This document shows positions 15,564-64,000 of a DNA stretch of 64,000 bases, one piece after another. The stretch is from the NCBI RefSeq assembly GCF_016406085.1, contig NZ_JAEHFJ010000002.1, positions 372,001 through 436,000 on the forward strand, written 5' to 3'. Position 1 is the stretch's first letter. Each line of letters starts with the position of its first letter. The translations under genes and the position numbers were made by a program. This stretch comes from Aureibaculum flavum. GTDB lineage: Bacteria > Bacteroidota > Bacteroidia > Flavobacteriales > Flavobacteriaceae. The notes under the pieces were generated by a model. It was not told the origin of the DNA and did not search any database. It saw nothing but the letters and a program-made list of their open reading frames with translations.

Positions 15564-15717
15564 AATTATAATCTTTATTAATGCAGCCTTAATGAAGCAA
15601 ACAATTAACCTTTAATTTTAAGAAATAAAATTAACCATTTCTTCCTCGTTAATATTCACAATTTTATCTTAAACTAATCATATATTACCCCTTTTATCAT
15701 CTTAAAAAATCAATGAA

Positions 15718-39184: not shown

Positions 39185-39272
39185 ACCTAATCAAGAGATT
39201 CATTAACAAAGGTTTTGTATTTATTTATAAACAAAGAACCAAATAGTAAACACTTAAACTTCATTCAAGGAT

Positions 39273-40412: not shown

Positions 40413-40740
40413 AAAAATTACGTATGACCTAAACCTAATCTCTTTAATGTGTCTAATCTTGAAATATCACTACAAGTTAATACTATGTTTAAGCTGATAA
40501 TTAACACATCACATGGAAATGAAATATATAGCACTCCATAATTGAACTACTTTATAATAAAGAAAGTCATTTTTAAGGTTGAAAGTAATCGTTCTGTTGC
40601 TCATTAATTCATAACTTTGTTTTGTCTCTTTTGAAAATCACTATCGTACGAATTGCGTTTTAAACCTATTTGTGACCTGAATAAATATAATATAGAGAGC
40701 GAATAATAAACAGAAACTATTCTAATTTAAAAAAAGCGAC
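40413..40740. other. Gap between galK and the isolated sulfatase gene
   Basis: About 330 AT-rich bases without an open frame. There is a -7-like TAACTTTG at 40614-40621 on the plus strand, 120 bases ahead of the sulfatase start but without a matching -33. This suggests, weakly, that the sulfatase has its own promoter. Confidence 0.5.
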
Positions 40741-43584: not shown

Positions 43585-46500
43585 ATGTTAAAAAGAATTT
43601 ATACATTTTTATTACTATTAATTTTCACATGGAGTGGATTATATGCTCAAAATACTGAACTCGAGTATTCTAAAAAGATTGATATTTCTGATGGGTTAGC
43701 ACACAATGGGGTTACTTCCATTCTTGAAGATTCTAAGGGTTATCTATGGTTTGGTACTTACGACGGACTTAACAAATATGATGGATATCATCTAGATACT
43801 TATAAAAATACGTTAGATAACGATATTTTAACAAGCAACCGTATCAGAGCGTTAAGTGAAGATAAAAATGGAAATATTTGGATTGGTACTGATGAAGGGA
43901 TTACTATTTTCAATTATTCGCAAAAAAAGTTCAAAAAAATCTACTCCAATAAACTATCTGGAAAAGGTGCACGTGGGCCTATTATTCGTAAAATAATTAT
44001 TACAGAAGAAAACAAATTTATCTTAGCCATTACCGAAAATAATGGAATCCTTGTCTTTAACAAAGACTATTCTTTAATTAAAAATTATTCACAACCAACG
44101 AATGTAACTAACGCCTACGTAAAATTTTACAACGGAATATACTTAGAAAATTCAAATTATATCTTTTCTACATCTGTAGGTCTAATACTTTTCAATTCTG
44201 AAACTGAATACTTTCAGAAAATTTCAGATATTGACATAAATCATAGTAAATCAATTATTAAAATTGATAATCATACGGTTCTGGCTACGCTATTCAAAGG
44301 CATTGCCATTATTGAATTTAATGCTATTAACAATTCTTACTCCTTTACTGTTAAAGAGAAAATATTGAACACTTACCATTTTAATAATGCCATGTTAGAT
44401 ACCTTAGGTAATTTATGGTTAAGTGAGTTAAATGAAGGTATTATTCATATCGATAACATAGATGCAATTATAAAAAAAACTCCTTTTAAACTTACAAAAT
44501 TCAATGATGGTCTTAAAATTTTAAGAGGTAGCGGTTTTCTTAAAACTTCTAGAAATAGTTGTTGGTTTGCAACCTTTAACGAAGGTTTGTATCAGTTTAA
44601 AATTAATAAGAATCCTTTTCATAGTTATAATACGGATATGGATTATGATTTAGGATTACAAACAAACAGCATCACTCATATTGCTCCTTTTGATGATAAT
44701 CGCGTTTTTTTATCTGCAAATTTTGGTGGATTGGCATTATTTAATACGCAAAATGAAAAATTTGAACCGTTACCATTTAAATTACCAAAGAGTTCAGACT
44801 TATCAATTTCAGCGGTATTTGTTGATTCGAAGCATAACACTTGGATAAGAATCAATGACGAAAAAGCGTTGCATCGAATTAAGAAAAATTCGAAAAAATT
44901 TGAAAAGATTCCATTTCCAAATATTTCTAATCCCAATGAGATTGCCATTCGCTCCTTTTCAGAAGATAAATTTGGAAATATTTGGATTGGGACAAATAAT
45001 GACGTTTATAAAATATCTATAAATAAATTTGATGTTGTAACGCAGGTAGAATCTCTCAATACTAATAATTTTTTTAAGAATAATGAATTGACGCTTGCTC
45101 GATATGTCTATGCCGATCCACTGTATGATTATGTTTGGGTTGGTACAGGGTCAGATGGTCTATTTAGGGTATATAATGAAATAAATAAACCCATTGAGAA
45201 ACTAGAAATAAATCAATATATAATTGATAAAACAAGCGAACATTCCCTTTCTAGCAATTTTGTTACTTCAATCTTAAGAATGCCTAATGAAGAATTATGG
45301 ATTGGTACTGAGGGAGGTGGTATTTGTAAAGTTTTAAAGAGTGATACGAAACCTGAATTTATAGCTTTTACCGAAAAAAACGGATTGTCTAATAACGTGG
45401 TTAAAAGTATTTCATTTGATAATGAAAATAATCTATGGGTGGCCACCAATATTGGATTAAATAAATTTAATACTATAGATAAAAAATTTAAAAAGTTTCA
45501 TAAATCCGACGGACTACCATTTGAAGATTTCTGGTTTGCTGCAAAGAGGATGGATAATGGAATTATTGTATTATCTGGTTTAGATGGTCTTTGCTATTTT
45601 AATCCTAATGAAATTGCAAATACTGAAGACTTACCATTACTTCAATTCGAAAACTTTAAAATATATAATAAAACAATCGTTTTAGGAGATACCATTGATG
45701 GAAGAGTTTTACTAAAAAGGAGTTTAAACGAATTAGATGAAATTACACTAAAACATGACGAAAATGTGTTTTCAATCGATCTAATTAGTTTGCATTACTC
45801 AAATCCAGCAAATCATAACTTAAAATATAGATTATTACCCTTAAATAAAGAATGGATTGAAGTTCCTTCAGGTCAGAACACTATTCAATATAGTGGGCTT
45901 CAACCAGGTGATTATGAATTTAATGTAATGGCATCTAACTCTTTAGATGAATGGACGATACCTAAGCAATTAAAAATAATAATTAAACCTTCCATTTGGA
46001 ACACAAAATTAGCTTACTTTATTTACACTCTTTTAGGTGTTTTATTGACTTATATTATAGGTCGTGGACTATTTAAAATCCAGGCGTTAAACTATAAAGT
46101 AGAAATTGAGAAGTTAGCAGTTAATAATGTAAAAGAAGTTAATGAAGAAAAATTACGTTTCTTTTCTAATATCTCACATGAAATAAAAACACCATTAACT
46201 TTAATTTCAGGCCCTATCAACATCTTATCAGATAGGTTTAAGGGTAATGCTGATGTAACTAGTAAGTTGAAACTTATGCAGCGTCAATCAAAAAAAATTC
46301 AACAATTGATTGATCAAGTCCAAGACTTTAGACGTGCAGATGCAAACCTTTTAAAAATGGAATACTCTCGTTTTAATTTTGATAATTTTATTCTTGAGCT
46401 TGTTGAAGACTTCAAATTTTTAGCTAAAACAGATAATAAATCACTTATAATTGATGGTGGTGAAACCCCCATTATTATAGCTGCAGATAAAGATAAATTG

Positions 46501-47718
46501 GGAAAAATTTTAAATAATTTATTAAATAATGCTTTTAAATATACACGAACAAATGATACAATTACTATAAATTATAAAAGTGACAACAAAGATTTAATCG
46601 TTACAGTTTCAGATACAGGGCAAGGTATAGAGGAAGAAGATTTACCACATGTTTTTGAACGATTTTATCAGTCATATAAAAAGAAAACTGAACATATAGG
46701 CGGATCTGGAATAGGTTTGGCATTTTCTAAAAGATTAGTTGAAATGCATTACGGATTTATTAATGCTAAAAGTGAACTTGGTAAGAATACTATAATCACG
46801 GTGCGGTTGCCAGTTGTTAAAAAACACTTAGCATCAGACAAACTTGAAGAATTAGTATTACCAAAAGAAGAAGAGTTTGAAATTGATAATCAATTTATTG
46901 AAAGTTTTACTCCTTCTACTATAGAAGTAAGTGGTGAATTTACTAAATCACTGATATTCTATGCTGAAGATAATTTAGAAATGAGAAATTTTGTATCAGA
47001 AGTACTTTCAAAGTACTTTATCATTAAAAACTTTAGGAATGGCCAGGAATGTATTGATGCAATGGAAGATGAATGGCCAGATCTTGTAATTAGTGATGTT
47101 CAAATGCCTGAACTTAATGGTTTAGAGTTATGTATTAGTATAAAATCAAATTTAAAAACAAGTCATATTCCTGTTATTTTACTAACGGCTCTAACCAACA
47201 TAAAGGATCATGTTCAAGGCATTAGAGATGGAGCTGATGCTTATATAAAAAAACCATTTAACGTACAGCAATTGGTCACTAATGTTGAGGCGTTGCTTAC
47301 CAATCGTAAACAACTCCGCGAACGCTATCAGGTTGGAATACCATTGACTAAGGAAAACAATAAGAATAACAGAAATGATAATGCATTTCTAGAAAAACTA
47401 TACAGTCTCATTGAAGAGAATCTCGATAATCAGGATTTTAACCTCAACAGTTTAGCCAAAGAACTCTATTTAAATCGCACCCATTTTTATCAAAAAGTAA
47501 AAGTATTAACTGATAAAACTCCTTTTGAACTCTTGAAAATGTACAGACTAAAAAAAGCAGCAGAATTTCTTGCACAAAAAGGACTCTCTGTTAATGAAGT
47601 TTATGCAATGACCGGTTTTAAGAGCCGTACCCATTTTACAAAAATATTCAAGGAAAAATATAATATTTCTCCAGGTAAATATGCTGCCGAAACTAGAAAA
47701 AACCACGAATCTAGTTAG
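43585..47718 (+). CDS. Hybrid two-component system sensor/regulator (HTCS)
   Basis: A 1377-residue one-piece sensor heading the plus-strand operon. It has a signal segment ending GLYAQ; periplasmic propeller repeats (repeated IWIGT/LWVAT motifs); a Y_Y_Y domain; and a membrane helix (about 800-825). The kinase has phospho-His865 in NISHEIKTP and ATPase boxes DTGQGI and GSGIGLAFS. The receiver has Asp1171 in ISDVQMPELNG, and there is an AraC-type helix-turn-helix at the C-terminus. All key residues are present. It is distinct from the sensor at 534-4733 in sequence and surroundings. It lies 196 bases before the beta-propeller gene and most likely activates the operon through 64000 upon sensing a sulfated galactan oligosaccharide. 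Confidence 0.95.
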   Translation: MLKRIYTFLLLLIFTWSGLYAQNTELEYSKKIDISDGLAHNGVTSILEDSKGYLWFGTYDGLNKYDGYHLDTYKNTLDNDILTSNRIRALSEDKNGNIWIGTDEGITIFNYSQKKFKKIYSNKLSGKGARGPIIRKIIITEENKFILAITENNGILVFNKDYSLIKNYSQPTNVTNAYVKFYNGIYLENSNYIFSTSVGLILFNSETEYFQKISDIDINHSKSIIKIDNHTVLATLFKGIAIIEFNAINNSYSFTVKEKILNTYHFNNAMLDTLGNLWLSELNEGIIHIDNIDAIIKKTPFKLTKFNDGLKILRGSGFLKTSRNSCWFATFNEGLYQFKINKNPFHSYNTDMDYDLGLQTNSITHIAPFDDNRVFLSANFGGLALFNTQNEKFEPLPFKLPKSSDLSISAVFVDSKHNTWIRINDEKALHRIKKNSKKFEKIPFPNISNPNEIAIRSFSEDKFGNIWIGTNNDVYKISINKFDVVTQVESLNTNNFFKNNELTLARYVYADPLYDYVWVGTGSDGLFRVYNEINKPIEKLEINQYIIDKTSEHSLSSNFVTSILRMPNEELWIGTEGGGICKVLKSDTKPEFIAFTEKNGLSNNVVKSISFDNENNLWVATNIGLNKFNTIDKKFKKFHKSDGLPFEDFWFAAKRMDNGIIVLSGLDGLCYFNPNEIANTEDLPLLQFENFKIYNKTIVLGDTIDGRVLLKRSLNELDEITLKHDENVFSIDLISLHYSNPANHNLKYRLLPLNKEWIEVPSGQNTIQYSGLQPGDYEFNVMASNSLDEWTIPKQLKIIIKPSIWNTKLAYFIYTLLGVLLTYIIGRGLFKIQALNYKVEIEKLAVNNVKEVNEEKLRFFSNISHEIKTPLTLISGPINILSDRFKGNADVTSKLKLMQRQSKKIQQLIDQVQDFRRADANLLKMEYSRFNFDNFILELVEDFKFLAKTDNKSLIIDGGETPIIIAADKDKLGKILNNLLNNAFKYTRTNDTITINYKSDNKDLIVTVSDTGQGIEEEDLPHVFERFYQSYKKKTEHIGGSGIGLAFSKRLVEMHYGFINAKSELGKNTIITVRLPVVKKHLASDKLEELVLPKEEEFEIDNQFIESFTPSTIEVSGEFTKSLIFYAEDNLEMRNFVSEVLSKYFIIKNFRNGQECIDAMEDEWPDLVISDVQMPELNGLELCISIKSNLKTSHIPVILLTALTNIKDHVQGIRDGADAYIKKPFNVQQLVTNVEALLTNRKQLRERYQVGIPLTKENNKNNRNDNAFLEKLYSLIEENLDNQDFNLNSLAKELYLNRTHFYQKVKVLTDKTPFELLKMYRLKKAAEFLAQKGLSVNEVYAMTGFKSRTHFTKIFKEKYNISPGKYAAETRKNHESS

Positions 47719-47914
47719 TAATTTCAGAATTAAATTTCTTAATGAATCTATAAAGACCAATAAACTTGGTATGTAATTTTGATTTTAGATAACATCTAAT
47801 AATAGATTTAAAGTGTAGTTGGAATTATAACATGTTTACTTAAGAATACATATAATATATTCTGAAATACATTTAATTTTAATTAAAGACCTTAATTTAC
47901 TATTAATAATTAAA

Positions 47915-50788
47915 ATGCATATTAACACCATTTATTCTATGAATACGAATCTAATTCAATTTCCAATAACAATACTCATTTTGTTTTTAAGCATTAATTG
48001 TGCATCAACTCAAGTTGAGCCATCTAACAACGAAGTACATAAATTTGCTGTTTATAGTATTGAAACAGGGTTTACAATTTCAAAAGTGCGTACTGCACAA
48101 AACCAGAATAAAACTTACGTAGTAGCCAGTAGCTACGAAGGTACTATTTTAGGGATTTCTTTAGATGGAAAAACACTATGGAAAAACGAATTATCTGGTT
48201 TTATGAATCATGATATTTGGGCTGCTGATATTAATAATGATGGTAATGATGAAATTATCGCAGCCAATGCAGATGGCACTGTATATTGCTTAGATAACAA
48301 AGGGAAGTTACTCTGGCAATTTAAGCAGAATGATGCACCAATGTATTCCGTATGTGTTATAAATAAAGAGAACGAAGCTTATGTGGTTTGTGGAGGATAT
48401 GATAACAGTTTCTACTATGTGTCACCAAAAGGAGAAATGGTAAGCGAAATACCTTCAAAAACATATTCTATAGAAAAACCATTTGGCAAATCACATAAAG
48501 AATTGCCACCTTCAGGTTTGCACATAACAAATTTTCTAAGGCCAGGAAAGCTTAATGGAAAAGATATTTTAATTGTTCATGGTGTTCAGAATAGTATGAA
48601 TGGGGATGGGTCAATCTATTTATTTAATCCTTTGGAAAAGCTGCCATTTGAAACTGTTAGTGTACAAAAACGTGGACCATATGGCGATTTAAGAGTAGTT
48701 GATGCTAATTCTGATGGGAGTAGTGAAATTTTATTAGGCCGAACTGGAGCTCAAGCAAAAGGAATGACTTTCCGTATTATTGACACAAAATCTCCTAATA
48801 AACAAAGTGTTCAAGATTTAAATAAAGCTAAAGATAAGGCTTCACTAAAAAGAGGTATGTATCGTGTTATTCAGCCAGAAGTTATTGATAATAATGGTAA
48901 ACCCGCGTATATGTCTTTATTTGGAAGTAATATTATTATTTCAAATATAGGAGAACCACAAGCTGCTGCCGAAGTAATACCAACACGGTTTTCTTTTAAT
49001 GATATGTTTAAAGATCCAAATTCTAACAAAGTAATATTAGCAAGTGCACAAAGTGGTGGCAGTGCCATTCATATTATTGATTTTAGTAATAAAGAATGGA
49101 AAAACGGTTATAAAAAATTAAATCCACCAGGAAAAATACAGGAGATACTGACTAATTCAGCAGAAATCAAACAGAATTTAAAAGGCTATAAAAAACCATC
49201 TTATCAAAAAGAATCAGCTCCAGTCTATTTTATGTCTGAAAACAGAAAGAAACAAGGTGCAGCAGAAGCTATTGAAAGGATTGAAGCGAAATATAGCAAT
49301 CCAATATTTTTAAATGGAGGAAACTTTGATAAAGAAAATTGGGATCGTTCTACTATGACAAGTGAGATCTATAAAAATAAGCGAGATGGTAGAATGAAAT
49401 ATATACTAACACAAAATGATGTTTTAGAAATAATAGAGGAAAAGCATCAAAAGTCGAATGGTAAAGGTATTTCGTATTGGGGAGGACATGGTAATGATCC
49501 ATTTATGTATCAAGTTTCAACCACTATGAAAGGTATGGATTTTGCCAATGGAAATAAAACAGTATTAATTTATCCAGAAGTAGTTGATTCTTCAGAAGAG
49601 TTTAATTTTGTGATGAATGAAATGTATTGGCCTTTAGCAAATTATGCTTCAACCCGAAATGGTAATTTGTACATGCGTAATAAGCATTTGTTTTGGCAAG
49701 CTGATGTATATATGCCAATGTGGGAACCTTTAGTTGCTGGTAAATATGCAAACGTATTTGTTCCAGCAATGGAAGAAACTACAGATAAATCTATGGAACT
49801 TAGTTTTACATCTCGATTGGGACTTTGGGCAAGTGGCTCTGTTGATAGTTGGGGAGCACGTTGTGCTAGAGATAACGTTAGTTTTGATCGTTTGCGTCAA
49901 CATTCAAATCAAACGCTACCCAACCATTTTTTAAGAACCATGGTGTATTCAATATCTAGTGGTGCACAGTACATTGATAACTTTCCAGTCGATCAAGAAT
50001 ATATGAGTTTACTATGGGATTTAATAGCTGAAGGTGCACTATACGTACCAGAACGCTCTGATATTTTAAGTTTTTCACCTGTACATTTAAGTATTAATAA
50101 TCCAGATGAGGAATATTTAACAACCTCAAGTAATGTAAAATGGTTGACCTTTTACAAGAAAGATGGAGATAATCTAGATGATTTTGCCTTTAGTAGGTTA
50201 AATGGCACATGGCCAGGAGCTCCTTTAACTAAATGGGATTTTTCTAGATATGCTGCCGGAGCAAATGAACGACGTTTAAATTTTATTCCAAAATATAATA
50301 ACGGAATGGTTTTAATTACTCCTACACAAAATGGTGTATTTGTAGATAAAGATGCCGTTAGAAAACCGTTGGAAGAAAATATTAACCCATGGTACAAAGG
50401 TAAATTAAAAGAATATTATTCAGATGGTAAGAATTATATGTCCGCAGATGGTAAGACCACTTATAAACCTAGTGATTATTACAAGGTAATTGAAAAAGAT
50501 ATTGAAGATAGTGCTGTTTTGTTACCATTGACTGTTTCTGGTAATGTGGGATGGGTAGTTGCACAAATTTCACCAAAACATTTACGTTTAACAATTGTCG
50601 AAAATGGCTATATTAATCCGAAGAAAGCTACTGCATCGGTTAAAATTAATAGTATTAAAGTAGTAAAAATCAAAGATATCTTAAACAATGAAGAGTTTAA
50701 ACCTAATGTAAACTCTGAAGTTGAAATAGATATTCCCTTAGGAGGTTTTCGTTTTATAGATATTGAACTGGAAAACGAATTAAAATAA
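47915..50788 (+). CDS. Beta-propeller glycoside hydrolase-like protein, candidate lambda-carrageenase (GH150-like)
   Basis: A 957-residue lipoprotein. The lipobox is SINC; the ATG at 47939 gives the more typical signal and may be the true start. The N-terminal ~430 residues are a PQQ/FG-GAP-like propeller (ADINNDGNDEIIAAN, GKLLWQF). The C-terminal half is a barrel-like domain with WGGHGNDPF (Trp522), IYPE (Glu555), LYMRNKHLFW, and AMEETT (Glu620-621). All these motifs recur at the same spacing in the homologue at 62095, so acidic residues Glu555 and Glu620 are candidate catalytic groups. The size and the propeller-plus-catalytic layout match what is known of lambda-carrageenase (GH150), and GH110 and sulfatase genes follow it. 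Family membership is inferred; the exported, two-domain architecture is seen. Confidence 0.65.
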   Translation: MHINTIYSMNTNLIQFPITILILFLSINCASTQVEPSNNEVHKFAVYSIETGFTISKVRTAQNQNKTYVVASSYEGTILGISLDGKTLWKNELSGFMNHDIWAADINNDGNDEIIAANADGTVYCLDNKGKLLWQFKQNDAPMYSVCVINKENEAYVVCGGYDNSFYYVSPKGEMVSEIPSKTYSIEKPFGKSHKELPPSGLHITNFLRPGKLNGKDILIVHGVQNSMNGDGSIYLFNPLEKLPFETVSVQKRGPYGDLRVVDANSDGSSEILLGRTGAQAKGMTFRIIDTKSPNKQSVQDLNKAKDKASLKRGMYRVIQPEVIDNNGKPAYMSLFGSNIIISNIGEPQAAAEVIPTRFSFNDMFKDPNSNKVILASAQSGGSAIHIIDFSNKEWKNGYKKLNPPGKIQEILTNSAEIKQNLKGYKKPSYQKESAPVYFMSENRKKQGAAEAIERIEAKYSNPIFLNGGNFDKENWDRSTMTSEIYKNKRDGRMKYILTQNDVLEIIEEKHQKSNGKGISYWGGHGNDPFMYQVSTTMKGMDFANGNKTVLIYPEVVDSSEEFNFVMNEMYWPLANYASTRNGNLYMRNKHLFWQADVYMPMWEPLVAGKYANVFVPAMEETTDKSMELSFTSRLGLWASGSVDSWGARCARDNVSFDRLRQHSNQTLPNHFLRTMVYSISSGAQYIDNFPVDQEYMSLLWDLIAEGALYVPERSDILSFSPVHLSINNPDEEYLTTSSNVKWLTFYKKDGDNLDDFAFSRLNGTWPGAPLTKWDFSRYAAGANERRLNFIPKYNNGMVLITPTQNGVFVDKDAVRKPLEENINPWYKGKLKEYYSDGKNYMSADGKTTYKPSDYYKVIEKDIEDSAVLLPLTVSGNVGWVVAQISPKHLRLTIVENGYINPKKATASVKINSIKVVKIKDILNNEEFKPNVNSEVEIDIPLGGFRFIDIELENELK

Positions 50789-50814
50789 GATTGACTGATA
50801 TTTAATAGAAAAAT

Positions 50815-52287
50815 ATGAAAACATACATCGTCAAAATAGTAGTACTTGTAACTATTATCAGTTTAAATAGTTGTGATACGAAACAAAAGGAAGTAGCAGA
50901 AAATAATACTAATGTTACTGATAGACCAAATATTATTCTTTTTGTTTCTGACGACCATGGTACCGACGCAATAGGTGCATATGGTAATCCAGTTATAAAA
51001 ACGCCAAATTTAGATAAGTTAGCAAATGAAGGTATCGTATTTACGGATGCATACTGTACCAGTGCCAGTTGTGCTGCTAGTCGTTCTGTAATACTTTCAG
51101 GAAAATTTGGTCATGCTACCGGCTCTTATGGTCATGTGCATGACTATCATCATTTCAGCACATATGATACTATCAAATCACTTCCAGTACTATTAAGTAA
51201 AGCAGGGTATGAAACAGCACGCATAGGTAAATATCATGTGGCACCAGAAAAAGTATATCATTTTGACCAAGTTTTAGAAGCAGATCCAAGAAATACGGTT
51301 GAAATGGCAGAGCAATGTGCTGATGTATTAAAATCAGACAAGCCCTTCTTTTTATATTTCTGTACGGATGACCCCCACAGAGGCCATCCTTTTGAACCGG
51401 ACCCATGGGATACACCAAATAGTTTTGGAAATAAAAAAGAAGGTTATAAAGATGTTGAAACTATTACTTACAACCCTGAAGATGTTCTTGTGCCAGCCTT
51501 TTTACCTGACACGAAACAGACAAGAGAAGAAATTGCCGAGTACTACCAAAGCATATCTCGAATTGATCAAGGTTTTGGAAAATTAATGCAAATGTTGCAA
51601 GAAACAGGGAAAGCAGATAATACTATTGTTTTTTATATTTCTGATAACGGAATGGCCTTTCCAGGAGCTAAAACTACAGTTTATGAACCTGGAATTAAGT
51701 TACCATGTATCATTAAAGATCCGACAAAGAATAGTAAAGGATTGACGAGTAATGCTATGATTTCATGGGTAGATTTAACACCTACGATTCTTGATATGGC
51801 AAAGGTTGATTTTGATGCCAATAAATTCCATGGGCATTCATTTTATGATATCATGGGAAAAGAAAAGTTTGAAGGTTGGAATGAGATATATGCCTCACAT
51901 ACCTTTCATGAAATTACTATGTATTACCCAATGCGTGTTGTAAGAAGTGAAAACTATAAACTCATTTGGAATATTGCTTATCGATTAGAATATCCTTTTG
52001 CTTCAGATTTGTGGGCATCTTCAACTTGGCAAGCCATTTACAGAAATAATATAGAATTTTTTGGACCAAAAACAGTGAAAGACTATTTGTTTAGAGCAGA
52101 ATTTGAACTCTACGATTTAAGTAAAGATCCGAATGAGTCGAATAATTTAGCTACTAACGCTTCTTTCCAAGACATTTTAAATACTATGAAAGGTAAAATG
52201 AAAGCCTTTCAAACCAAAACGAAAGACCCATGGATGATTATGTGGGGTCATGATGCTTCTTTACAAGGAAGTGGTGTTAATTTATAA
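50815..52287 (+). CDS. S1 sulfatase, heparan-N-sulfatase-like branch, lipoprotein (CAASR)
   Basis: A 490-residue sulfatase with lipobox LNSC (Cys20). Its formylglycine precursor Cys86 lies in the less common C-x-A-x-R form (SCAASRSVILSG) in place of C-x-P-x-R. Other motifs: FVSDDHGTDAIGAYG, GKYHVAPEK and YISDNGMAFP. The overall sequence resembles the N-sulfoglucosamine sulfohydrolase-like branch, members of which desulfate galactans in marine loci. It begins 26 bases after the propeller gene and 8 bases before the GH110 gene, so it is co-transcribed. A galactose 2- or 6-sulfate is the likely target by context. Confidence 0.9.
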   Translation: MKTYIVKIVVLVTIISLNSCDTKQKEVAENNTNVTDRPNIILFVSDDHGTDAIGAYGNPVIKTPNLDKLANEGIVFTDAYCTSASCAASRSVILSGKFGHATGSYGHVHDYHHFSTYDTIKSLPVLLSKAGYETARIGKYHVAPEKVYHFDQVLEADPRNTVEMAEQCADVLKSDKPFFLYFCTDDPHRGHPFEPDPWDTPNSFGNKKEGYKDVETITYNPEDVLVPAFLPDTKQTREEIAEYYQSISRIDQGFGKLMQMLQETGKADNTIVFYISDNGMAFPGAKTTVYEPGIKLPCIIKDPTKNSKGLTSNAMISWVDLTPTILDMAKVDFDANKFHGHSFYDIMGKEKFEGWNEIYASHTFHEITMYYPMRVVRSENYKLIWNIAYRLEYPFASDLWASSTWQAIYRNNIEFFGPKTVKDYLFRAEFELYDLSKDPNESNNLATNASFQDILNTMKGKMKAFQTKTKDPWMIMWGHDASLQGSGVNL

Positions 52288-52295
52288 AAATCAAT

Positions 52296-54110: not shown

Positions 54111-54113
54111 GAG

Positions 54114-56387: not shown

Positions 56388-56390
56388 AAC

Positions 56391-57299
56391 ATGAAGAATT
56401 ATTTCTACACTTTTATCCTAGTGATATTTATTTTTACAAGTTGTAATACAGCTAAAGTAGATGCTTCTAAATCAAAAATTGGAAATTCAAAAGATGTACA
56501 CGTCGTTTTATTAGCTGGTCAATCAAACATGCAAGGTGCAGGAAATTTTGATAATTTAAATGCTTCTGAAATTGAAAGAATTGAAAAAGTTTCAAGTCGA
56601 GTTTCACTAAGTTTTAACGGAGGAAAAGTAGAACCACTCTCTTATTACGATAATAAACCATCAGAAAAATATGAATTTACAAAACGCTTTGGTCCAGAGA
56701 TATTTATAGGGTTAACCTTAGCGGAAAACAATCCAAATCAAGAATTTTTATTGATAAAGCGTTCTCAAGGCGGAACCGCTTTGTATGGTGCATGGAACCC
56801 AAATTGGACAGCCGAAAAAGCGAAAGCTGTTGAAAAAGAGAAAAAGCAAAAAATTCAGCTTTACAATTTGCATATCCAAGATATAAAGGAGAATTTGAAA
56901 GCATTAGAAACTCAAAATAAAACCTATAAAATTATTGGCTTAGCTTGGATGCAAGGGGAAAACGATGCAGCAAAAGAAATTAGTGCAACAACTTACGAAG
57001 AGAATCTTAAAATTTTGATTAAAAGTTATAGAGATGAATTTGGTATTATAAACATGCCATTTGTAATCGGACAAATAAATTCAAGATACGGAAAGTATAA
57101 AGCAAAAGGTCCAGCAATGGTTCGGAAAGCTATGGAAGATGTGGCTAATTCAGATAAAAATGTTGATATCGTTAAAACAACAACGGATACGAGTTGGAGT
57201 GATTATCCTAAACATATGGATAACGTCCATTATAATGCCGAAGGACAAAAACGCTTAGGTAAGGCATTTGGAGAAAAGCTAATTATTTTAAATAAATAG
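56391..57299 (+). CDS. SGNH/sialate O-acetylesterase-like hydrolase, lipoprotein
   Basis: A 302-residue lipoprotein (lipobox FTSC, Cys18) of the SASA/SGNH esterase type. Nucleophile Ser45 in LLAGQSNMQG, an oxyanion-region Gly-Glu-Asn block (WMQGENDA near residue 185) and the catalytic Asp277-x-x-His280 in MDNVHYN are visible. Family members remove O-acetyl groups from sugars. The gene starts 3 bases after the GH42-like gene and ends 4 bases before a sulfatase gene, so it is part of the operon. Acetylation is not a usual feature of carrageenan, so its substrate is open: natural O-acetyl or another ester in the algal wall. Confidence 0.88.
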   Translation: MKNYFYTFILVIFIFTSCNTAKVDASKSKIGNSKDVHVVLLAGQSNMQGAGNFDNLNASEIERIEKVSSRVSLSFNGGKVEPLSYYDNKPSEKYEFTKRFGPEIFIGLTLAENNPNQEFLLIKRSQGGTALYGAWNPNWTAEKAKAVEKEKKQKIQLYNLHIQDIKENLKALETQNKTYKIIGLAWMQGENDAAKEISATTYEENLKILIKSYRDEFGIINMPFVIGQINSRYGKYKAKGPAMVRKAMEDVANSDKNVDIVKTTTDTSWSDYPKHMDNVHYNAEGQKRLGKAFGEKLIILNK

Positions 57300-57303
57300 A
57301 GCT

Positions 57304-58830
57304 ATGAAAAACTATTTGATACTATTTGTTGTTATTGTTTTTTATTCATGTAAAAATGAAAAACCTTCTCATACGAAAATAGCTCAAAAACCAAATATTG
57401 TCTTTGTATTAGTGGATGATTTAGGCTATGCTGATGTAGGTTTTAACGGTTCAAAATATTTTGAAACACCTAATTTAGATGCTTTGGCTAAAGAAAGTTT
57501 AGTGTTAGATAATGCGTATATGTATCCCACATGTTCGCCATCAAGAACTGCAATTTTTACAGGAAAACAATCTTTCAGAACTGGAGTTTATACAGTACCT
57601 GTTCTTGAAAAGGGAACAGCGGAAGAAAATATTTTTTCACGTTGGACAGTTGGGAAAGAACATCCAATCTATGCAGAACCCTTGGCAGATGCTGGATATA
57701 AATCTATTCATCTTGGTAAATGGCATATTGTTGGTCCATATCCAGAGAAAGAATTGTCAATGGAGTTTCCATTTCATCAAAAACTGACACAACCAGAACC
57801 TGGAGATTATAGTTGGGTAGCAGCACATAAACAACCAGAAATCAGTCAGTATTATCCTGAAGGAAGAGGTTTTATAAAAAATGTAGGAGGCACATTTAGA
57901 GGTGATCCTGGATTTGAAGAAGGTGGTTATAAAAGTGAAGCAGGAGGTTATTGGGCACCATTTAGCAATCCTTTTATAGACAAAAAAACAGACGATAATT
58001 GGTTAACCGATAGACTTACAGACGATGCTATTGCGTTTATGGATTCTCATAAAGAAGAACCTTTCTTAATCAACTTAAATTTTTATGCAGTTCACAGACC
58101 AATTAAGTCGCGTAGTGAAAAGTTGTATAAAAAATATATGACTAAACCTGTTGATTCAGTTTTAGGTCAAGGTATTGGTAAGAACGCAAAAGCAAAGGAA
58201 TTAATGGCAAAATATGCCACAATGCTAGAATCTGTTGATGATAATATACAACGCGTAATTGACTATTTAGATAAAAACGGACTTAGAGAAAACACCATAA
58301 TTATTTTAACATCAGATAATGGTTACCATAGAATAGCAAGTGCAAATAAGCAATTAAGAGGAGCAAAAGGAGATATTTACGAAGGTGGAATAAAAGTACC
58401 AATGTTGGTGAATTGGCCAAAGAAGGTAATACCAAGACGAAGTGAAGTTGCGGTTTCGGGGTTAGATGTTTTTCCAACGCTAATGGATTTAGCAAAAATT
58501 GAAGATTATAATGGACAATTAGATGGTGCTTCAATGACTAGCTTATTTCAAACAGATGATAAATCTCTAAAAGAACGACCCTTGTTTTGGCATTTAGCAA
58601 GTCAATATAAACATGGTACTTGTTCTGTAATTAGAAAAGGAAATTATAAGTTAATTCAATTTTTAGCGGATGGTAAATTGGAACTATATGATTTAAAAAA
58701 CGATCAAAAAGAAAGTCATAATCTCGTTGAAGAACAACCAGAATTAACAACAAAATTATTGGTAGAATTAGTGGATTGGCGAAAAAACAATATGGTGCCT
58801 TTACCACCAAATTCTGTTTTGAAATTTTAG
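57304..58830 (+). CDS. S1 sulfatase, lipoprotein (CSPSR)
   Basis: A 508-residue sulfatase with lipobox FYSC (Cys16) and formylglycine precursor Cys77 in TCSPSRTAIFTG. Motifs: LVDDLGYADVGFNG, GKWHIVGPYP and LTSDNGYHRIA. A glycine-rich insert of about 50 residues (around 175-225) separates it from close family members. It looks like the GalNAc-6-sulfatase/arylsulfatase A type. It is 4 bases after the esterase gene and 59 bases before the next sulfatase. The attacked sulfate position is unknown. Confidence 0.92.
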   Translation: MKNYLILFVVIVFYSCKNEKPSHTKIAQKPNIVFVLVDDLGYADVGFNGSKYFETPNLDALAKESLVLDNAYMYPTCSPSRTAIFTGKQSFRTGVYTVPVLEKGTAEENIFSRWTVGKEHPIYAEPLADAGYKSIHLGKWHIVGPYPEKELSMEFPFHQKLTQPEPGDYSWVAAHKQPEISQYYPEGRGFIKNVGGTFRGDPGFEEGGYKSEAGGYWAPFSNPFIDKKTDDNWLTDRLTDDAIAFMDSHKEEPFLINLNFYAVHRPIKSRSEKLYKKYMTKPVDSVLGQGIGKNAKAKELMAKYATMLESVDDNIQRVIDYLDKNGLRENTIIILTSDNGYHRIASANKQLRGAKGDIYEGGIKVPMLVNWPKKVIPRRSEVAVSGLDVFPTLMDLAKIEDYNGQLDGASMTSLFQTDDKSLKERPLFWHLASQYKHGTCSVIRKGNYKLIQFLADGKLELYDLKNDQKESHNLVEEQPELTTKLLVELVDWRKNNMVPLPPNSVLKF

Positions 58831-58889
58831 ATTAAACCAATGTTGAAATTATAAGTCAAATTGATTTAGTCTTATATAAAACTTAAAAA

Positions 58890-60392
58890 ATGAATTCAAA
58901 ATTTTTAAAAATATCATTATTCGTTTGTTGTTGCATGTTTTTGTCTTGTAATGCACAAAAAGGGAATAAAACAACTCAAACAACCGTTAAAAAGAAACCT
59001 AACCTCATCATCATTCACACCGATGAGCACAACTTCAGAACATTAAGTTGCTATCAAAAATTATTGACAGAAGATCAAGCCTTTGTTTGGGGAAAAGGGA
59101 ATAATTCGACAACGCCAAATATTGATAGATTGGCAGATGAAGGTGCCATTAGCACGAGTTACTATGCATCTTCTCCCGTTTGTACACCATCGCGTGCTTC
59201 ATTAATGACGGGTTTATATCCACAAGCAACAGGAGCACCTAAAAATGGGCTTCATATTAGAGAAGATGTACCAACGTTTGCAACTATTCTAAGAGCTCAA
59301 GGATACGCAACATCATACGTTGGTAAATGGCATTTAGCAGGTCATGAGAAATACACATTTAATATTAAGTATAAAGCAGGTTTTGATGATAACCGTTATA
59401 TGATGCGTGGTGGACATGCACCCTATTTCAAACTTTCTCAAGACGGTTCTGTAATCACTGGAATTAATGAAAAGGTTGCGGCCAAATTAAATAAGGGTGA
59501 GTTCGTTCATGTAACAGATTTCTTTACAAATAAAACACTCGAAATTCTAGAACGAGATAAAAACAAACCATTTGCGTTGATGTTATCCATTCCAGATCCA
59601 CATACGCCAGATGTTGCGAGACCACCTTATGATAGAATGTATAAGGATTTAAAAATTGAAGCACCAAAAACAATGGCATCGGAATATACAGCTATTAAAC
59701 CGTCTTGGGCAACAGATAAAACTAAGAACGAAACTATTGGAGCAAAATCTTTTGAGAATAAAAAAGAAACAAGTGCTTTAAAACAGTATTTCGGTATGGT
59801 AAGTCATATCGATGATAGTGTAGGTCGAGTTCTTAAATTTTTGGAGGATAATAATTTAGTGGAAAACACTATAATTATTTTCACTTCAGATCATGGAGAT
59901 ATGTTTTTTGAACATAACCGTAGAAATAAAGGTGTGCCTTATGAAGCTTCTGCTAGAATTCCATTTGTTATTCGTTATCCTAACAAAATACCAGCCCATA
60001 AAGTGATTAATACAGCGTATACAAATGTAGACTTTGCACCAACGATTTTAAGCTTAATGAATGTCAAAACTGATGCTAAGTTTCATGGTTTAGATACCTC
60101 TAAAGATTTTACAAATACTAAAAAAGTAGTCGATAGTGATAGAATTACATATTACGCCAAATCTGGTGGATGGTGGGTAACTGCGGTAAATGATCGTTAT
60201 AAATTAGTTATTGATAAAAAGGAAAAGCCCTATTTGTTCGACCTAGAAAAGGATCCTGATGAGTTGATTAACTTTTACTACCATAAGGACTATAAAGACA
60301 TAGCAAATATGATGCAAACCGAGTTGTTTAAGCAGTTAAAAAAGTATGATGAGCCAGGATTAAAAGGCAAACAAAGCTTTATTACGGAGTGA
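58890..60392 (+). CDS. S1 sulfatase, choline-sulfatase-like branch, lipoprotein (CTPSR)
   Basis: A 500-residue sulfatase with a lipobox FLSC (Cys20) and formylglycine precursor Cys98 in VCTPSRASLMTG. Motifs: IHTDEHNFRTLSCY, GKWHLAGHEK and FTSDHGDMFFEH. The N-terminal part carries an extra segment (EDQAFVWGKGN, about 60-72) before the TPNIDRLADEG block. It differs clearly from the other three sulfatases of the operon, which suggests a separate sulfate position. It has a 100-base gap before the next sulfatase gene, with no clear promoter in it. Confidence 0.92.
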   Translation: MNSKFLKISLFVCCCMFLSCNAQKGNKTTQTTVKKKPNLIIIHTDEHNFRTLSCYQKLLTEDQAFVWGKGNNSTTPNIDRLADEGAISTSYYASSPVCTPSRASLMTGLYPQATGAPKNGLHIREDVPTFATILRAQGYATSYVGKWHLAGHEKYTFNIKYKAGFDDNRYMMRGGHAPYFKLSQDGSVITGINEKVAAKLNKGEFVHVTDFFTNKTLEILERDKNKPFALMLSIPDPHTPDVARPPYDRMYKDLKIEAPKTMASEYTAIKPSWATDKTKNETIGAKSFENKKETSALKQYFGMVSHIDDSVGRVLKFLEDNNLVENTIIIFTSDHGDMFFEHNRRNKGVPYEASARIPFVIRYPNKIPAHKVINTAYTNVDFAPTILSLMNVKTDAKFHGLDTSKDFTNTKKVVDSDRITYYAKSGGWWVTAVNDRYKLVIDKKEKPYLFDLEKDPDELINFYYHKDYKDIANMMQTELFKQLKKYDEPGLKGKQSFITE

Positions 60393-60492
60393 TAATTAGC
60401 TATAAAACCTATGGCGACATTAATTTTACCATAAACGACACACTACCCTATGCGTAGGTTACCTTTGATTTATAATCTTTAAAATACTTAAA

Positions 60493-62016
60493 ATGAAATT
60501 TACATTATCTAAAACTTTACTATATTTAGTTGTATGCGTTATCTGTTTTTCTTGTAATTCACAAAAGAAAGTAGCCGAAAAAAAACCAAATATCCTGTGG
60601 ATAGTTGCTGAAGACTTATCGCCTTTTATGGGCTGTTACGGAGATTCTATAAATGCTGGACATACCCCAGTTATAGATAAATTGGCTAGTGAAGGCGTGC
60701 TTTTTAAACGTGCTTATGCTAGTGCTCCAGTTTGTTCTGCAGCAAGATCTGCATTTATTACAGGTGTTATGCAAACTACAACAGGAACTCATAATCATAG
60801 ATCTAGTAGATTTACTGATGATAGTATTGTACCTCAAGATTTACGTATTCTTTTACCTAAAGACATGAAAACCATTCCTGAATTAATGAAGGATGCTGGA
60901 TATTTTACCTTTAATAGTGGAAAAGATGATTATAATTTCCATTATGATAGAAGAGCTTTATATGATGTGGGTACAAAAGAGAACTATAAGGCAGGTATGA
61001 ACGGTTGGCAAGGAAATCATGCTATTGATTACATGACGGTAAAGAATTATGTATGGAGTTCAAGACCTGATAAAAACCAGCCTTGGTTTGGCCAAGTACA
61101 AATAATGGGAGGAAAAAAAGATGCTAAGTATGTTCGAGAAGGTGAGAAATTAGAGCCAAACGATGTGCCTTTGCCTCCTTATTTCCCTAATATCCCATCG
61201 CAACGCGAAGCTTGGACAACACACTACAATGCAAATAGAGGGTCTGATGTTACGGTTGAAAATATATTAAAACAATTGGAAGCAGATGGCGAGCTGGAAA
61301 ACACTATCATCTTTTTCTTTTCAGATCATGGAAGCCCAACGTCTCTTCGTCATAAACAATTTTGTTATGAAGGCGGTTTGTTAGTGCCCTTAATGATTAA
61401 GGGGAATCATCCAGCTTTAAAAGCAGGTGTTGTAAGAAACGATTTGGTATCATTATTAGATGTGTCGGCTACAACTTTAGCCATGGGAGGAGCTGTTATG
61501 CCAAAATATTTAGACGGTAAAGATTTGTTTGTTAAAGACTTTAAAGAGTCAAAATATGTTATAGGAGCAAGAGATAGATGTGATTATACCATTGACAGAA
61601 TAAGGACTGTAGTTTCTAAAGACTTCCGTTATATTAAAAACTTTTTTCCAGAAAGACCAATGATGCAGGCGGGCTACAGAGATAATAAGCCAATTGTAAA
61701 GGATCTAAAAAAAGCTCATGAAGAAGGTAAATTAACCCCATACCAAGAAAAACATTGGTTTGGAGTACGACCTGTTGAAGAGTTATATGATTTAAAAGCA
61801 GATCCAGATGAAATGAATAACCTGGCTGAAAATCCTGAATTTTCTAAAGTTCTTTTAGAACACAGAACCGTTTTAGAAAATTGGATAAAAGATACGGATG
61901 ATAAAGGGCAATATCCAGAAGATGCGGCTCAATTAGAAGCGACATTTAATTTATGGAAAGACAGACCACGATTTAAAAATGCAAAAGTTAATCCTGAGTA
62001 TGATCAGTTTAGATAA
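60493..62016 (+). CDS. S1 sulfatase, heparan-N-sulfatase-like branch, lipoprotein (CSAAR)
   Basis: A 507-residue sulfatase with lipobox CFSC (Cys21). Like the sulfatase at 50815 it has the C-x-A-x-R form: Cys81 in PVCSAARSAFITG. Motifs: IVAEDLSPFMGCYGDS, FNSGKDDYNFHYD (the usual GKWH replaced by GKDDY) and FFSDHGSPTS. This branch includes galactan-acting sulfatases, so a role in removing galactose sulfates is likely. The replaced GKWH block is notable, since that Lys-His pair normally helps bind the sulfate. It is the last complete gene before the truncated propeller protein, 78 bases downstream. Confidence 0.9.
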   Translation: MKFTLSKTLLYLVVCVICFSCNSQKKVAEKKPNILWIVAEDLSPFMGCYGDSINAGHTPVIDKLASEGVLFKRAYASAPVCSAARSAFITGVMQTTTGTHNHRSSRFTDDSIVPQDLRILLPKDMKTIPELMKDAGYFTFNSGKDDYNFHYDRRALYDVGTKENYKAGMNGWQGNHAIDYMTVKNYVWSSRPDKNQPWFGQVQIMGGKKDAKYVREGEKLEPNDVPLPPYFPNIPSQREAWTTHYNANRGSDVTVENILKQLEADGELENTIIFFFSDHGSPTSLRHKQFCYEGGLLVPLMIKGNHPALKAGVVRNDLVSLLDVSATTLAMGGAVMPKYLDGKDLFVKDFKESKYVIGARDRCDYTIDRIRTVVSKDFRYIKNFFPERPMMQAGYRDNKPIVKDLKKAHEEGKLTPYQEKHWFGVRPVEELYDLKADPDEMNNLAENPEFSKVLLEHRTVLENWIKDTDDKGQYPEDAAQLEATFNLWKDRPRFKNAKVNPEYDQFR

Positions 62017-62094
62017 AAATGGCATCTTTTTTAAAACAAATTAAACGAAGTCCATTTTTTAAAGTCTAATAATCCAATTCTATAATCTTTTAAA

Positions 62095-64000
62095 ATGAAA
62101 AAAATATTTATGGCTTTCGTTTTTGCATTAATAGCATTTACGATTTCTGCACAGCACTTTATAACAGAAGGAAATGCTATTAGACATACTATTGCTGCTT
62201 CAGTAAATGGGGAATCTGTATTGTTTATAGGAGAATTAGATGGAAGCGTCTCTTCGTATACGCTAGGAGGAGAACAACGCTGGCGAGTGGCTACCCATGA
62301 TCCCGCTGTGCTTTTCGAAATTGAAGCTGCAGATATTAATAATGATGGTAATGATGATTTATTAGTTGCAAATGCCAACGGAAACATCTATTGTTACGAT
62401 AGTTCAGGAAAACTATTATGGCAATTTGCTTCGGATCATAAAGTACGTTTTTCTGAAGTTGCAGTTGTTAAAAACAAAGGTAATGTTCAGATTTTTGCAG
62501 GTGGAAATGATCGTACATTATATGAATTAGATACTAGGGGAAAGCTAGTTTCAGAAACGAAAACTGAAGGTGTTGTTAGAAAATTGGAAGCTGGTAATTT
62601 TGTCAACTCAGAAACAGAAAGCCTTTTTCTAATGACGTACAGTTATGATAAATTCCGTTGGGAGTTTTTAGGGTTCATGGATGCCAATTCAAAAGTAGTC
62701 ATTAAAAGCGTTGATGATAAGGAAAAGTATTTAAAAAAATTAACAAAAGCAATGGTTACTGATATTACGATTGCTGATATCAATGGGGATAAAAAAGACG
62801 ACATCTTATTTTTTGGAGACGATAAGTTTAAACCTTTATTTACAGCTTTAGATAGTGACTTCAACATTATTGCAGAATATCAAGGCAATAATAAACAAAC
62901 ACAGCGTTATGCACATTCTCAAGGAGCATTTTTACCAAGTAGAAATGAGATTATGTTTCAACATGGTGGTATTTTACTGGTTTTAGATAACAAAGGAAAG
63001 TTAATTAAATCATCAGGCGAACGTTATGGTAAAATGGTGTTTAGTGATTTTGCAGTCGAACAAAAATCGAATCAACTTATAGCTGGCGGAACTGTAGATG
63101 GAGGCAATGCGATTTGTTTTTATGATTTAACAAGAGATAATTGGTTTAAGACGAACCATAATAAAGAAGGCAGAATGCTCGAGGTCGAAAAAAATATTGC
63201 CACTCTTTATGAGCAAACACTAAATTTTAAATTACCTAGTTATCAAACTAAATCGGAAAAAGAATGGGTTATGATTACAAAAAGTAATACCGATTCTAGG
63301 CTAGAAAAACTAGATGGTGGAGATATTACATTTGTGATTCAAAAAGCACCTAAGGAATCTACTGATCGATCGCATTTAGTGGCAATTATGGGAGATGTTG
63401 CCTTAAAAAAAGATAAGCGTGGTAAATACCAAGATTCAAGAGAAGATATAATACAAATGGCTAGAGATTTTGAAGCAGAAGGTCAACCATTCACATTTTG
63501 GGCTGGTCATGGAAATGATCCATTTTATATTCAGATTGAAACTTTAGAGCAAATATTAGAAGTTGCACCAAATACCTGTTATGGTTTTGTATATGCAGAA
63601 ATGGCGAATGTTGAAGATCCTAGAGTTATTCATTATGTAAAGGAATATATGCCAAGACTTGCTAAGGCAATCCGGAAAAATAATAAGGCAAAACTATACT
63701 TTAGATATAAAAATATGTTTTGGGCTGCAACTTCACACTTACCATTATGGAAAGACATGTTCTTCTCAAAGAAATATAGCGATATTTTAGCACCTGCTTC
63801 TGAAGACACAAGTAATCGCACACAAGACTTAAATTTAGCAGGTCGTGTTGGTATGCATTCAGGAGGTTATGTAAATGATTATGCAATGCGACTAATTGAT
63901 GATAACCCTACAAGTTGGAGACCATTGTCGCCAGGCGGACAAAATTCAGTATCGCCATATTTAAGACAAGGCGTAATAATGGCAGCATATGGAGCAAGAT
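62095..64000 (+). CDS. Beta-propeller glycoside hydrolase-like protein, second copy (partial, GH150-like)
   Basis: An open frame from the ATG at 62095 runs, without a stop, off the right edge (635 codons seen). It begins with a signal peptide (ending FTISAQ) and no lipobox, so it should be soluble. The N-terminal propeller (AADINNDGNDDLLVAN, ADINGDKKDDILFF) and the catalytic-like half are clearly homologous to the protein at 47915: WAGHGNDPF (Trp469), YAE (Glu502, again 33 residues later), LYFRYKNMFW, and ASEDTS (Glu570). Overall it has diverged strongly from that copy. Both copies flank the operon's glycosidase and sulfatase genes. If the first is a lambda-carrageenase, this one probably attacks the same backbone with different sulfation or length preference. 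Confidence 0.72.
   Translation, partial: MKKIFMAFVFALIAFTISAQHFITEGNAIRHTIAASVNGESVLFIGELDGSVSSYTLGGEQRWRVATHDPAVLFEIEAADINNDGNDDLLVANANGNIYCYDSSGKLLWQFASDHKVRFSEVAVVKNKGNVQIFAGGNDRTLYELDTRGKLVSETKTEGVVRKLEAGNFVNSETESLFLMTYSYDKFRWEFLGFMDANSKVVIKSVDDKEKYLKKLTKAMVTDITIADINGDKKDDILFFGDDKFKPLFTALDSDFNIIAEYQGNNKQTQRYAHSQGAFLPSRNEIMFQHGGILLVLDNKGKLIKSSGERYGKMVFSDFAVEQKSNQLIAGGTVDGGNAICFYDLTRDNWFKTNHNKEGRMLEVEKNIATLYEQTLNFKLPSYQTKSEKEWVMITKSNTDSRLEKLDGGDITFVIQKAPKESTDRSHLVAIMGDVALKKDKRGKYQDSREDIIQMARDFEAEGQPFTFWAGHGNDPFYIQIETLEQILEVAPNTCYGFVYAEMANVEDPRVIHYVKEYMPRLAKAIRKNNKAKLYFRYKNMFWAATSHLPLWKDMFFSKKYSDILAPASEDTSNRTQDLNLAGRVGMHSGGYVNDYAMRLIDDNPTSWRPLSPGGQNSVSPYLRQGVIMAAYGAR

Follow-up and report, generated by a model that had tools for sequence, protein, structure and literature searches.

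A probable λ-carrageenan utilisation locus of Aureibaculum flavum with a GH167 enzyme and a SASA esterase

We analysed a 64,000-nt stretch of DNA of the marine flavobacterium Aureibaculum flavum (contig C12:372001-436000, within a 4.75-Mb genome), hereafter the window, and in particular the run of plus-strand genes that begins there with a hybrid two-component system (HTCS) sensor and continues past the window edge. Judging from the sequences, this run is very probably a flavobacterial λ-carrageenan utilisation locus, including the cascade proposed below. The initial annotation had read it as a pathway for a λ-type sulfated galactan, a reading supported by the GH150 domains of two proteins, by their likeness to the two GH150s of Pseudoalteromonas carrageenovora and by a GH110 of the λ-active type. 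Few natural polymers are as sulfated as λ-carrageenan, a polysaccharide of red seaweeds, and the Pseudoalteromonas pathway is the only complete enzymatic route for it in the literature consulted (PMC12549532; here and below, papers are cited from the portions available to us). The operon and its relatives represent a recurring flavobacterial version, with two steps that the published pathway does not explain.

Gene content, order and proposed cascade

The first GH150 protein, GH150A (47915..50788, 957 aa), is made of a β-propeller, a (β/α) barrel and a C-terminal β-sandwich, and matches over its full length the Pfam domains Beta-prop_CGLA (441 bits), CGLA_M (616 bits) and CGLA_C (121 bits). 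The second, GH150B, is cut by the window edge (62095..64000); its whole open reading frame (ORF) of 880 aa, at L003:95-2737, passes the Pfam cut-off for the same three domains. The initial annotation, which had described both as propeller proteins resembling λ-carrageenase, had named the lack of a GH150 match as what would refute it, and the profile search found the three domains in both. GH150A and GH150B are 47% and 52% identical, respectively, to GH150A and GH150B of P. carrageenovora and 26% identical to each other, while GH150A of Aureibaculum luteum (L006) is 99% identical to that of the window. A PDB sequence search with GH150 matched no solved structure. Residues D491, D528, E555, E620, D653 and D775 of GH150A are invariant over 30 aligned rows, the catalytic pair not being established in the literature consulted. 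The family is described as exclusively λ-active (PMC12549532), and both proteins are predicted to be endo-acting λ-carrageenases. Chance or broken propeller copies are ruled out, both genes being free of internal stops, and the match scores and the conserved gene order exclude chance for the locus.

The GH110 protein GH110A (52296..54110), a predicted exo-α-1,3-galactosidase, scores 726 and 723 bits with PDB entries 9beh and 9bev, named GH110A of P. distincta, and 271 bits with the next GH110, 7jw4, which we take to be GH110B. It is 55% identical to its P. carrageenovora counterpart and keeps the arginine of the 6-sulfate pocket (Arg460), the position of Thr498 being occupied by serine; we predict that it releases galactose-6-sulfate. 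That the nearest solved structure is a λ-active GH110A, with the 6-sulfate-binding arginine retained, agrees with the λ-carrageenan reading of the initial annotation.

Nine S1 sulfatases (S1a-S1i) lie between the sensor and the second galT, four of them within the window, and the cysteine sulfatase site is present in all nine; three ORFs of the FGE-sulfatase family elsewhere in the genome may mature them. For the S1_8-like S1a (50815..52287), with a Cys-Ala-Ala-Ser-Arg site at residue 86, the nearest solved structure is human SGSH, followed by S1_8A among the named carrageenan enzymes, and we consider it a candidate 2-O-sulfatase. S1b (57304..58830) is nearest to the S1_16 κ-carrageenan sulfatase 9fo1 (238 bits), with 7stt close behind (234 bits), and S1c (58890..60392) is of the S1_30 type (481 bits with PDB 9ihk, Sulfatase_S1_30A; 150 bits with the next match). 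S1d (60493..62016; CSAAR at residue 81) scores 401 bits with the S1_8B structure 9bbd against 268 with S1_8A and is 43% identical to a sulfatase of P. carrageenovora polysaccharide utilisation locus (PUL) 8, so that by homology it would be an exo-2-O-sulfatase acting on terminal α-Gal2,6S. Among the sulfatases beyond the window edge, S1h shows 46-47% identity to a pair of arylsulfatases in what appears to be P. carrageenovora PUL 9, which is described as holding one S1_8 and two S1_15 sulfatases (PMC6262041), and S1g is nearest to the third sulfatase of that PUL (35%).

In the window the operon comprises, all on the plus strand, the HTCS (43585..47718; Reg_prop repeats, Y_Y_Y, HisKA, HATPase, receiver and AraC-type helix-turn-helix domains by Pfam), which is the probable sensor and activator of the operon, then GH150A, S1a, GH110A, a 757-aa GH167 (54114..56387), a SASA/SGNH carbohydrate esterase (56391..57299; PF03629, 116 bits), S1b, S1c, S1d and the 5′ part of GH150B. 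Beyond the window edge follow the rest of GH150B, three sulfatases, GH2, GH110B, SusC, SusD, two sulfatases, galT, galK, an SSF symporter and a nucleotide-sugar epimerase. Every gene that the initial annotation had named was recovered as a long plus-strand ORF with a family match above the Pfam cut-off; its gene list held in content, not in order, as S1a sits between the first propeller protein and GH110. The mostly very short gaps that it had noted measure 3 to 196 bases by ORF coordinates; beyond the window, by the same measure, a 670-base gap lies 3′ of GH150B and the remaining gaps are below 200 bases. Its remark that the operon has no SusC/SusD is literally correct for the window and wrong for the operon, which runs on past the edge into such a pair about 10 kb further (L003:12201-15323 and 15343-17130, i.e. 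contig C12:446201-451130). This pair, co-oriented with the carbohydrate-active enzymes and the sensor, makes the run a PUL.

We compared 25 GH150 loci from species genomes, taking up to 10 kb on each side and accepting matches at identity thresholds set per gene. HTCS, GH150A (1 to 3 copies), S1a, GH110A and SASA occur in this order in 12 of the 25. These 12 include L006, which nearly duplicates the window, and in some of them other ORFs intervene. An HTCS homologue at least 50% identical was found in 15 loci and an S1a homologue at least 60% identical in 16; GH110A is present in 16, GH167 in 7, S1b in 6 and the S1_30-type S1c in 9. L027 belongs to Pontiella sulfatireligans (G787), whose genome gives eleven matches to the middle domain of lambda-carrageenase; nine score at least 190 bits, and four of these nine are in open frames of 1275-1489 codons.

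In the proposed cascade, all activities and cell locations are those expected from characterised relatives. The HTCS would sense λ-oligosaccharides and switch the operon on; GH150A and GH150B would cleave the β-1,4 bonds of λ-carrageenan, and SusC/SusD would import the resulting λ-neocarrageenan oligosaccharides. In the periplasm, the S1_8B-like S1d would strip the 2-sulfate from the terminal α-galactose, after which GH110A would free galactose-6-sulfate. A 2-O-sulfatase, for which S1a is the best candidate, would then clear the next β-linked Gal2S and the GH2 β-galactosidase would free galactose, fully desulfated ends being handled by GH110B. The S1_15-like S1h and the S1_8-like S1g would desulfate the freed sugars, which the SSF symporter would pass to GalK, GalT and the epimerase. 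The two most speculative steps are those of GH167, which by a cut at a β-1,4 bond would probably free an α-1,3-galactobiose unit, hence a disaccharide-releasing exit, and of SASA, which would take ester groups off the natural polymer.

The GH167 enzyme, the SASA esterase and the GH150 barrel

The product of 54114..56387 had been called GH42-like. A weak Pfam GH42 match does exist, but GH42 identity was dropped, as the PDB search makes the enzyme a GH167: it is homologous over nearly its full length to 9whd (GH167 according to its depositors, 872 bits) and 6ptm (784 bits). The latter is taken to be the BovGH167 of PMC6923384, the chain length and two catalytic glutamates fitting the construct described. 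By alignment the acid/base is Glu272 and the nucleophile Glu455; both are among the 66 columns invariant over 26 compared GH167 sequences. The family has been described for the κ/ι pathway (PMC6923384), and the GH167s of κ/ι carrageenan PULs (CarPULs), namely P. fuliginea PS47 GH167 and BovGH167, have the same catalytic glutamates as that of the window; they differ in tree position and in neighbours.

A maximum-likelihood tree of 34 GH167s placed 14 of 15 λ-labelled rows in one group (support 86/97; a core of 12 at 100/99), where the label stands for GH150, GH110A, SASA, S1a or S1d as a neighbour (in one row SASA alone, in one S1a alone). The label requires 2 changes on this tree against 11.4 in shuffles, and 0 of 500 shuffles was as low, a count that near-copies among the rows favour. 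The tree covers two Cellulophaga GH167s from the phylum sample and the genomes picked for GH150, the remaining new GH167s there being left out, as were L103_5510 (long branch), G036 C5 (24% identity), copies belonging to genomes that the tree already included or nearly included (L006, L010, L018 and L024), and the split L021 gene. In this last locus (Polaribacter sp. AH-578-A01), next to GH150, S1a, GH110A and SASA, a frameshift or an assembly error divides GH167 into two ORFs (283 and 503 aa). Neighbours in the λ-linked group are GH150, GH110A, SASA or S1a, and in the κ/ι type GH16 and GH127. The activity expected of the family, release of β-neocarrabiose from β/κ-neocarra-oligosaccharides, may be different in the λ-linked group. 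Outside the λ-linked group, the GH167 ORFs of L101, L102, L103, L105, L107 and L108 are longer than that of the window (about 1000 aa compared with 757), and those of L101, L107 and L108 adjoin a SusC/D similar to that of the λ operon.

Among 397 Flavobacteriaceae genomes, GH167 was found in 18 and GH150 in 14; of the 10 genomes whose GH167 belongs to the λ-linked group, 9 have GH150, against 1 of the 8 with another GH167, where the match is partial (Fisher p 0.003). In the phylum sample GH167 occurs in 6 of 395 genomes, all six Flavobacteriaceae. Because the tree label depends in part on SASA and S1a neighbours, we also counted distances to GH150 alone: in GH150-bearing genomes, GH150 lies within 25 kb of 17 of the 19 GH167s at least 58% identical to that of the window, the other two being on contigs without GH150, and of 6 of the 32 others (p 9.5e-7). 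This p value is merely indicative, since both thresholds were chosen after the tree and the sequences are not independent. The count pools the first sample with a second set containing 17 genomes picked for GH150, and of the 62 GH167s listed it does not take in 11 from genomes without an accepted GH150; its lists omit two partial GH150 matches (G246), two weak ones (G787), one piece of a split gene (G783) and the new phylum-sample matches. We found no description of a λ-linked GH167 group in the available literature on λ loci, and consider it new here. If GH167 does act on λ fragments, a family characterised in κ/ι metabolism gains a second substrate.

The SASA esterase contains the stretches GQSNM, QGEND and DNVH, which presumably play the corresponding SASA/SGNH motif roles. 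A SASA profile matched in 15 of the 25 GH150 loci (two copies in 6) against 0 of 10 κ-labelled loci (L104, L106, L109-L114, L123, L125; Fisher p 0.0016), to be read knowing that 31 of the same proteins went into the profile, that locus lengths differ and that absence in a locus does not mean absence in the genome. Pfam also identifies as SASA two otherwise unassigned ORFs of about 460 aa in relatives, and gave no match for a 446-aa ORF in L007; a second, longer SASA (about 460 aa) lies near the first in the λ loci L009, L010, L014, L018 and L019, and the operon itself has one SASA in the stretches read. Presence in GH150 loci and absence from the κ-labelled ones suggest an esterified native substrate, hence that native λ-carrageenan carries acyl esters; should SASA prove necessary, the structure accepted for native λ-carrageenan would be incomplete. 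A literature search for O-acetylated carrageenan listed nothing relevant, neither for nor against acyl esters on native λ-carrageenan; what PMC12843084 deals with, in its available part, is fucoidan, ulvan and derivatised sugars. The λ cascade of PMC12549532 names, in the portion available, glycoside hydrolases and sulfatases only; words beginning with esterase are absent from the main text of PMC6262041, and the string esterase from the available text of PMC13168452.

The GH150 fold was modelled with AlphaFold2 from 30 aligned rows (GH150A, predicted local distance difference test score 87.5; barrel domain alone, 84.3). The 17 best Foldseek PDB matches of the modelled barrel are GH98 catalytic modules, representing few distinct enzymes (best GH98 E 4.4e-7, first non-GH98 E 6.1e-4), and the best match of the full model is also a GH98. 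The TM-score on the query is 0.44-0.54, the root mean square deviation 7.7-12 Å and the identity about 10%, and a profile of the GH150 middle domain run on PDB chains gave no GH98 match up to E 10; with a TM-score of about 0.5, deviations of at least 7.7 Å and no profile match, kinship is suggested at most. CglA and GH98 both invert anomeric configuration. The model suggests that the GH150 barrel resembles in fold only the barrel of GH98 (endo-β-galactosidases and an endoxylanase), from which it differs in sequence, and we do not claim membership. A search for GH98 sequences in genomes of the family (149) and of the phylum (395) gave no match over the cut-off, the controls likewise giving none, and we found no paper naming GH98 together with GH150. 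Such a fold, if correct, would give a foothold in the search for the catalytic residues of λ-carrageenase.

Taken together as a longer flavobacterial pathway, in which a λ-dedicated GH167 frees galactobiose, one or two SASAs per locus remove acyl esters and GH150 is a fold relative of GH98, these points make a tentative proposal, the odds being rather against all of it holding. If it did hold, native λ-carrageenan would be O-acylated and the groups would be lost in alkaline extraction.

Alternative substrates and the neighbouring κ locus

Several points weigh against the λ-carrageenan reading. GH110B of the operon lacks the arginine of the 6-sulfate pocket, which fits a desulfated end, and its GH2 shares with that of P. 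carrageenovora no more than 25% identity, over 442 residues. No clear S1_8C counterpart was recognised in the operon: a 652-aa P. carrageenovora sulfatase, S1_8C by length and place only, appears among the three best matches listed for S1d (28.6%) and S1g (27.0%) only, and S1a as a stand-in is a guess. Ten of the 25 GH150 loci have no SASA within 10 kb and 18 have no GH167, so that neither extra part is universal. Other routes for the use of λ-carrageenan exist: Zobellia galactanivorans is reported to grow on it without GH150 (PMC6262041), and a λ-carrageenase of GH16_17 is mentioned for Bacteroides (PMC13168452). Finally, S1b, S1c, S1e, S1f and S1i matched no sulfatase of the published λ cascade; the true substrate may therefore be a hybrid or differently decorated galactan.

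This last point leads to the strongest alternative, namely that the locus targets hybrid or θ/ξ-type carrageenans, with GH150 acting on λ blocks and GH167, the S1_16-like S1b and the S1_30 sulfatase on κ/ι-like blocks of the same chains. GH167 and S1_16 are indeed known from κ/ι-carrageenan enzymes (PMC6923384), bovine CarPULs hold S1_8, S1_16 and S1_30, and the BxMAG CarPUL of a ruminant Bacteroides joins GH16_17, GH82, GH150 and GH167 (PMC13168452). The λ run, however, has no annotated GH16, GH82 or GH127, the GH16 and GH127 genes of the window belonging to a second, divergent PUL; moreover, the λ-linked GH167s group apart in the tree, and genome G084 has one GH167 of each group in different loci. 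Five further genomes have copies both at least 58% and 40-43% identical to the GH167 of the operon, which were not placed in the tree. We regard hybrid chains as a possible but doubtful target.

The divergent PUL (534-36726, minus strand) holds three GH16, GH127, GH3, three S1 sulfatases and SusC/D, together with an MR_MLE enolase, aldehyde dehydrogenase, aldolase, transketolase and transaldolase, and is a probable locus for κ-family (anhydrogalactose) carrageenan. In G119 (L110), a genome of the same genus, a GH167 stands between GH127 and an FG-GAP/ASPIC gene; the divergent PUL has none there, these two genes being only 17 bases apart in the window, and the A. flavum genome gave a single GH167 match. 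The GH167 of the λ operon could hence serve the κ pathway in place of a lost κ copy. It is, however, 43% identical to the κ-type GH167 of G119 and in the other tree group, thus not a displaced gene; the order GH110A, GH167, SASA recurs in L006, L018, L020, L021 and L022, and genomes with both kinds of GH167 exist. Replacement is accordingly improbable, while the missing κ copy makes a dual role possible, which also tells against our reading.

A κ/ι or agar operon is excluded, as no GH16, GH82 or GH127 is annotated in the plus-strand run. Degradation of another α-1,3/β-1,4-galactan, such as an animal glycan with Galα1-3Gal ends, to which the blood-group B galactosidases of GH110 (PMC6262041) might point, is highly implausible beside two proteins of a family described as exclusively λ-active (PMC12549532), a GH110 whose nearest solved relative accepts 6-sulfate, with its arginine kept, and the nine sulfatases S1a-S1i.

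Between the divergent PUL and the HTCS lie galT, galK and one S1 sulfatase (38168..42375, plus strand). This first galT-galK pair (38168-40412) and the second (L004:366-2524) flank the λ operon in direct orientation about 44 kb apart, with about 88% DNA and 93% protein identity, and could be recombination sites for its loss or gain. In two same-genus genomes the galT-galK flanks demonstrated no empty site; a contig end of G119 has a κ SusC, an AraC gene and a galT fragment together.

Comparison with known systems

The λ cascade was proposed in PMC6262041 and, with GH150A/B, GH110A/B, GH2, S1_8A/B/C and S1_15A/B, is biochemically established for P. distincta U2A (PMC12549532). The λ-CarPUL of this strain and PULs 8 and 9 of P. 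carrageenovora 9T share with the operon two GH150s (A and B type), two GH110s, a GH2, S1_8 and S1_15 sulfatases, a galactokinase and a sodium/sugar symporter, four of the enzymes being 43-55% identical. The operon has an HTCS and SusC/SusD, whereas the P. carrageenovora table, which is incomplete, gives TonB receptors and no SusD; it has in addition GH167, SASA, S1_30, an S1_16-like and further sulfatases in one run, its GH2 is different, it has no clear S1_8C, and the Pseudoalteromonas genes are spread over a plasmid.

No paper linking Aureibaculum to carrageenan was found in the literature consulted. The PUL of Flavobacteriaceae bacterium S85, reported in 2018, has two GH150s beside GH2 and GH110, like the present locus in outline; we set it beside ours by description, and the available text of PMC6262041 names no GH167 or esterase for it. 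A Reichenbachiella that degrades λ-carrageenan is described with five GH110s, GH150 not being named in the part available (PMC10752948). GH150, GH167 and GH110 also occur in ruminant Bacteroides (PMC13168452) and fish-gut Alistipes (PMC11748540); BxMAG has GH150 and GH167 in one PUL like the operon, but mixed with κ/ι enzymes (PMC13168452), and the gut descriptions, as far as available, mention no λ-specific GH167 group and no esterase. The core of the locus is therefore known in kind from the published Pseudoalteromonas, S85 and gut systems; what is new here is the λ-linked GH167 group with its linkage to GH150, SASA in λ loci and the GH98-like barrel of GH150.

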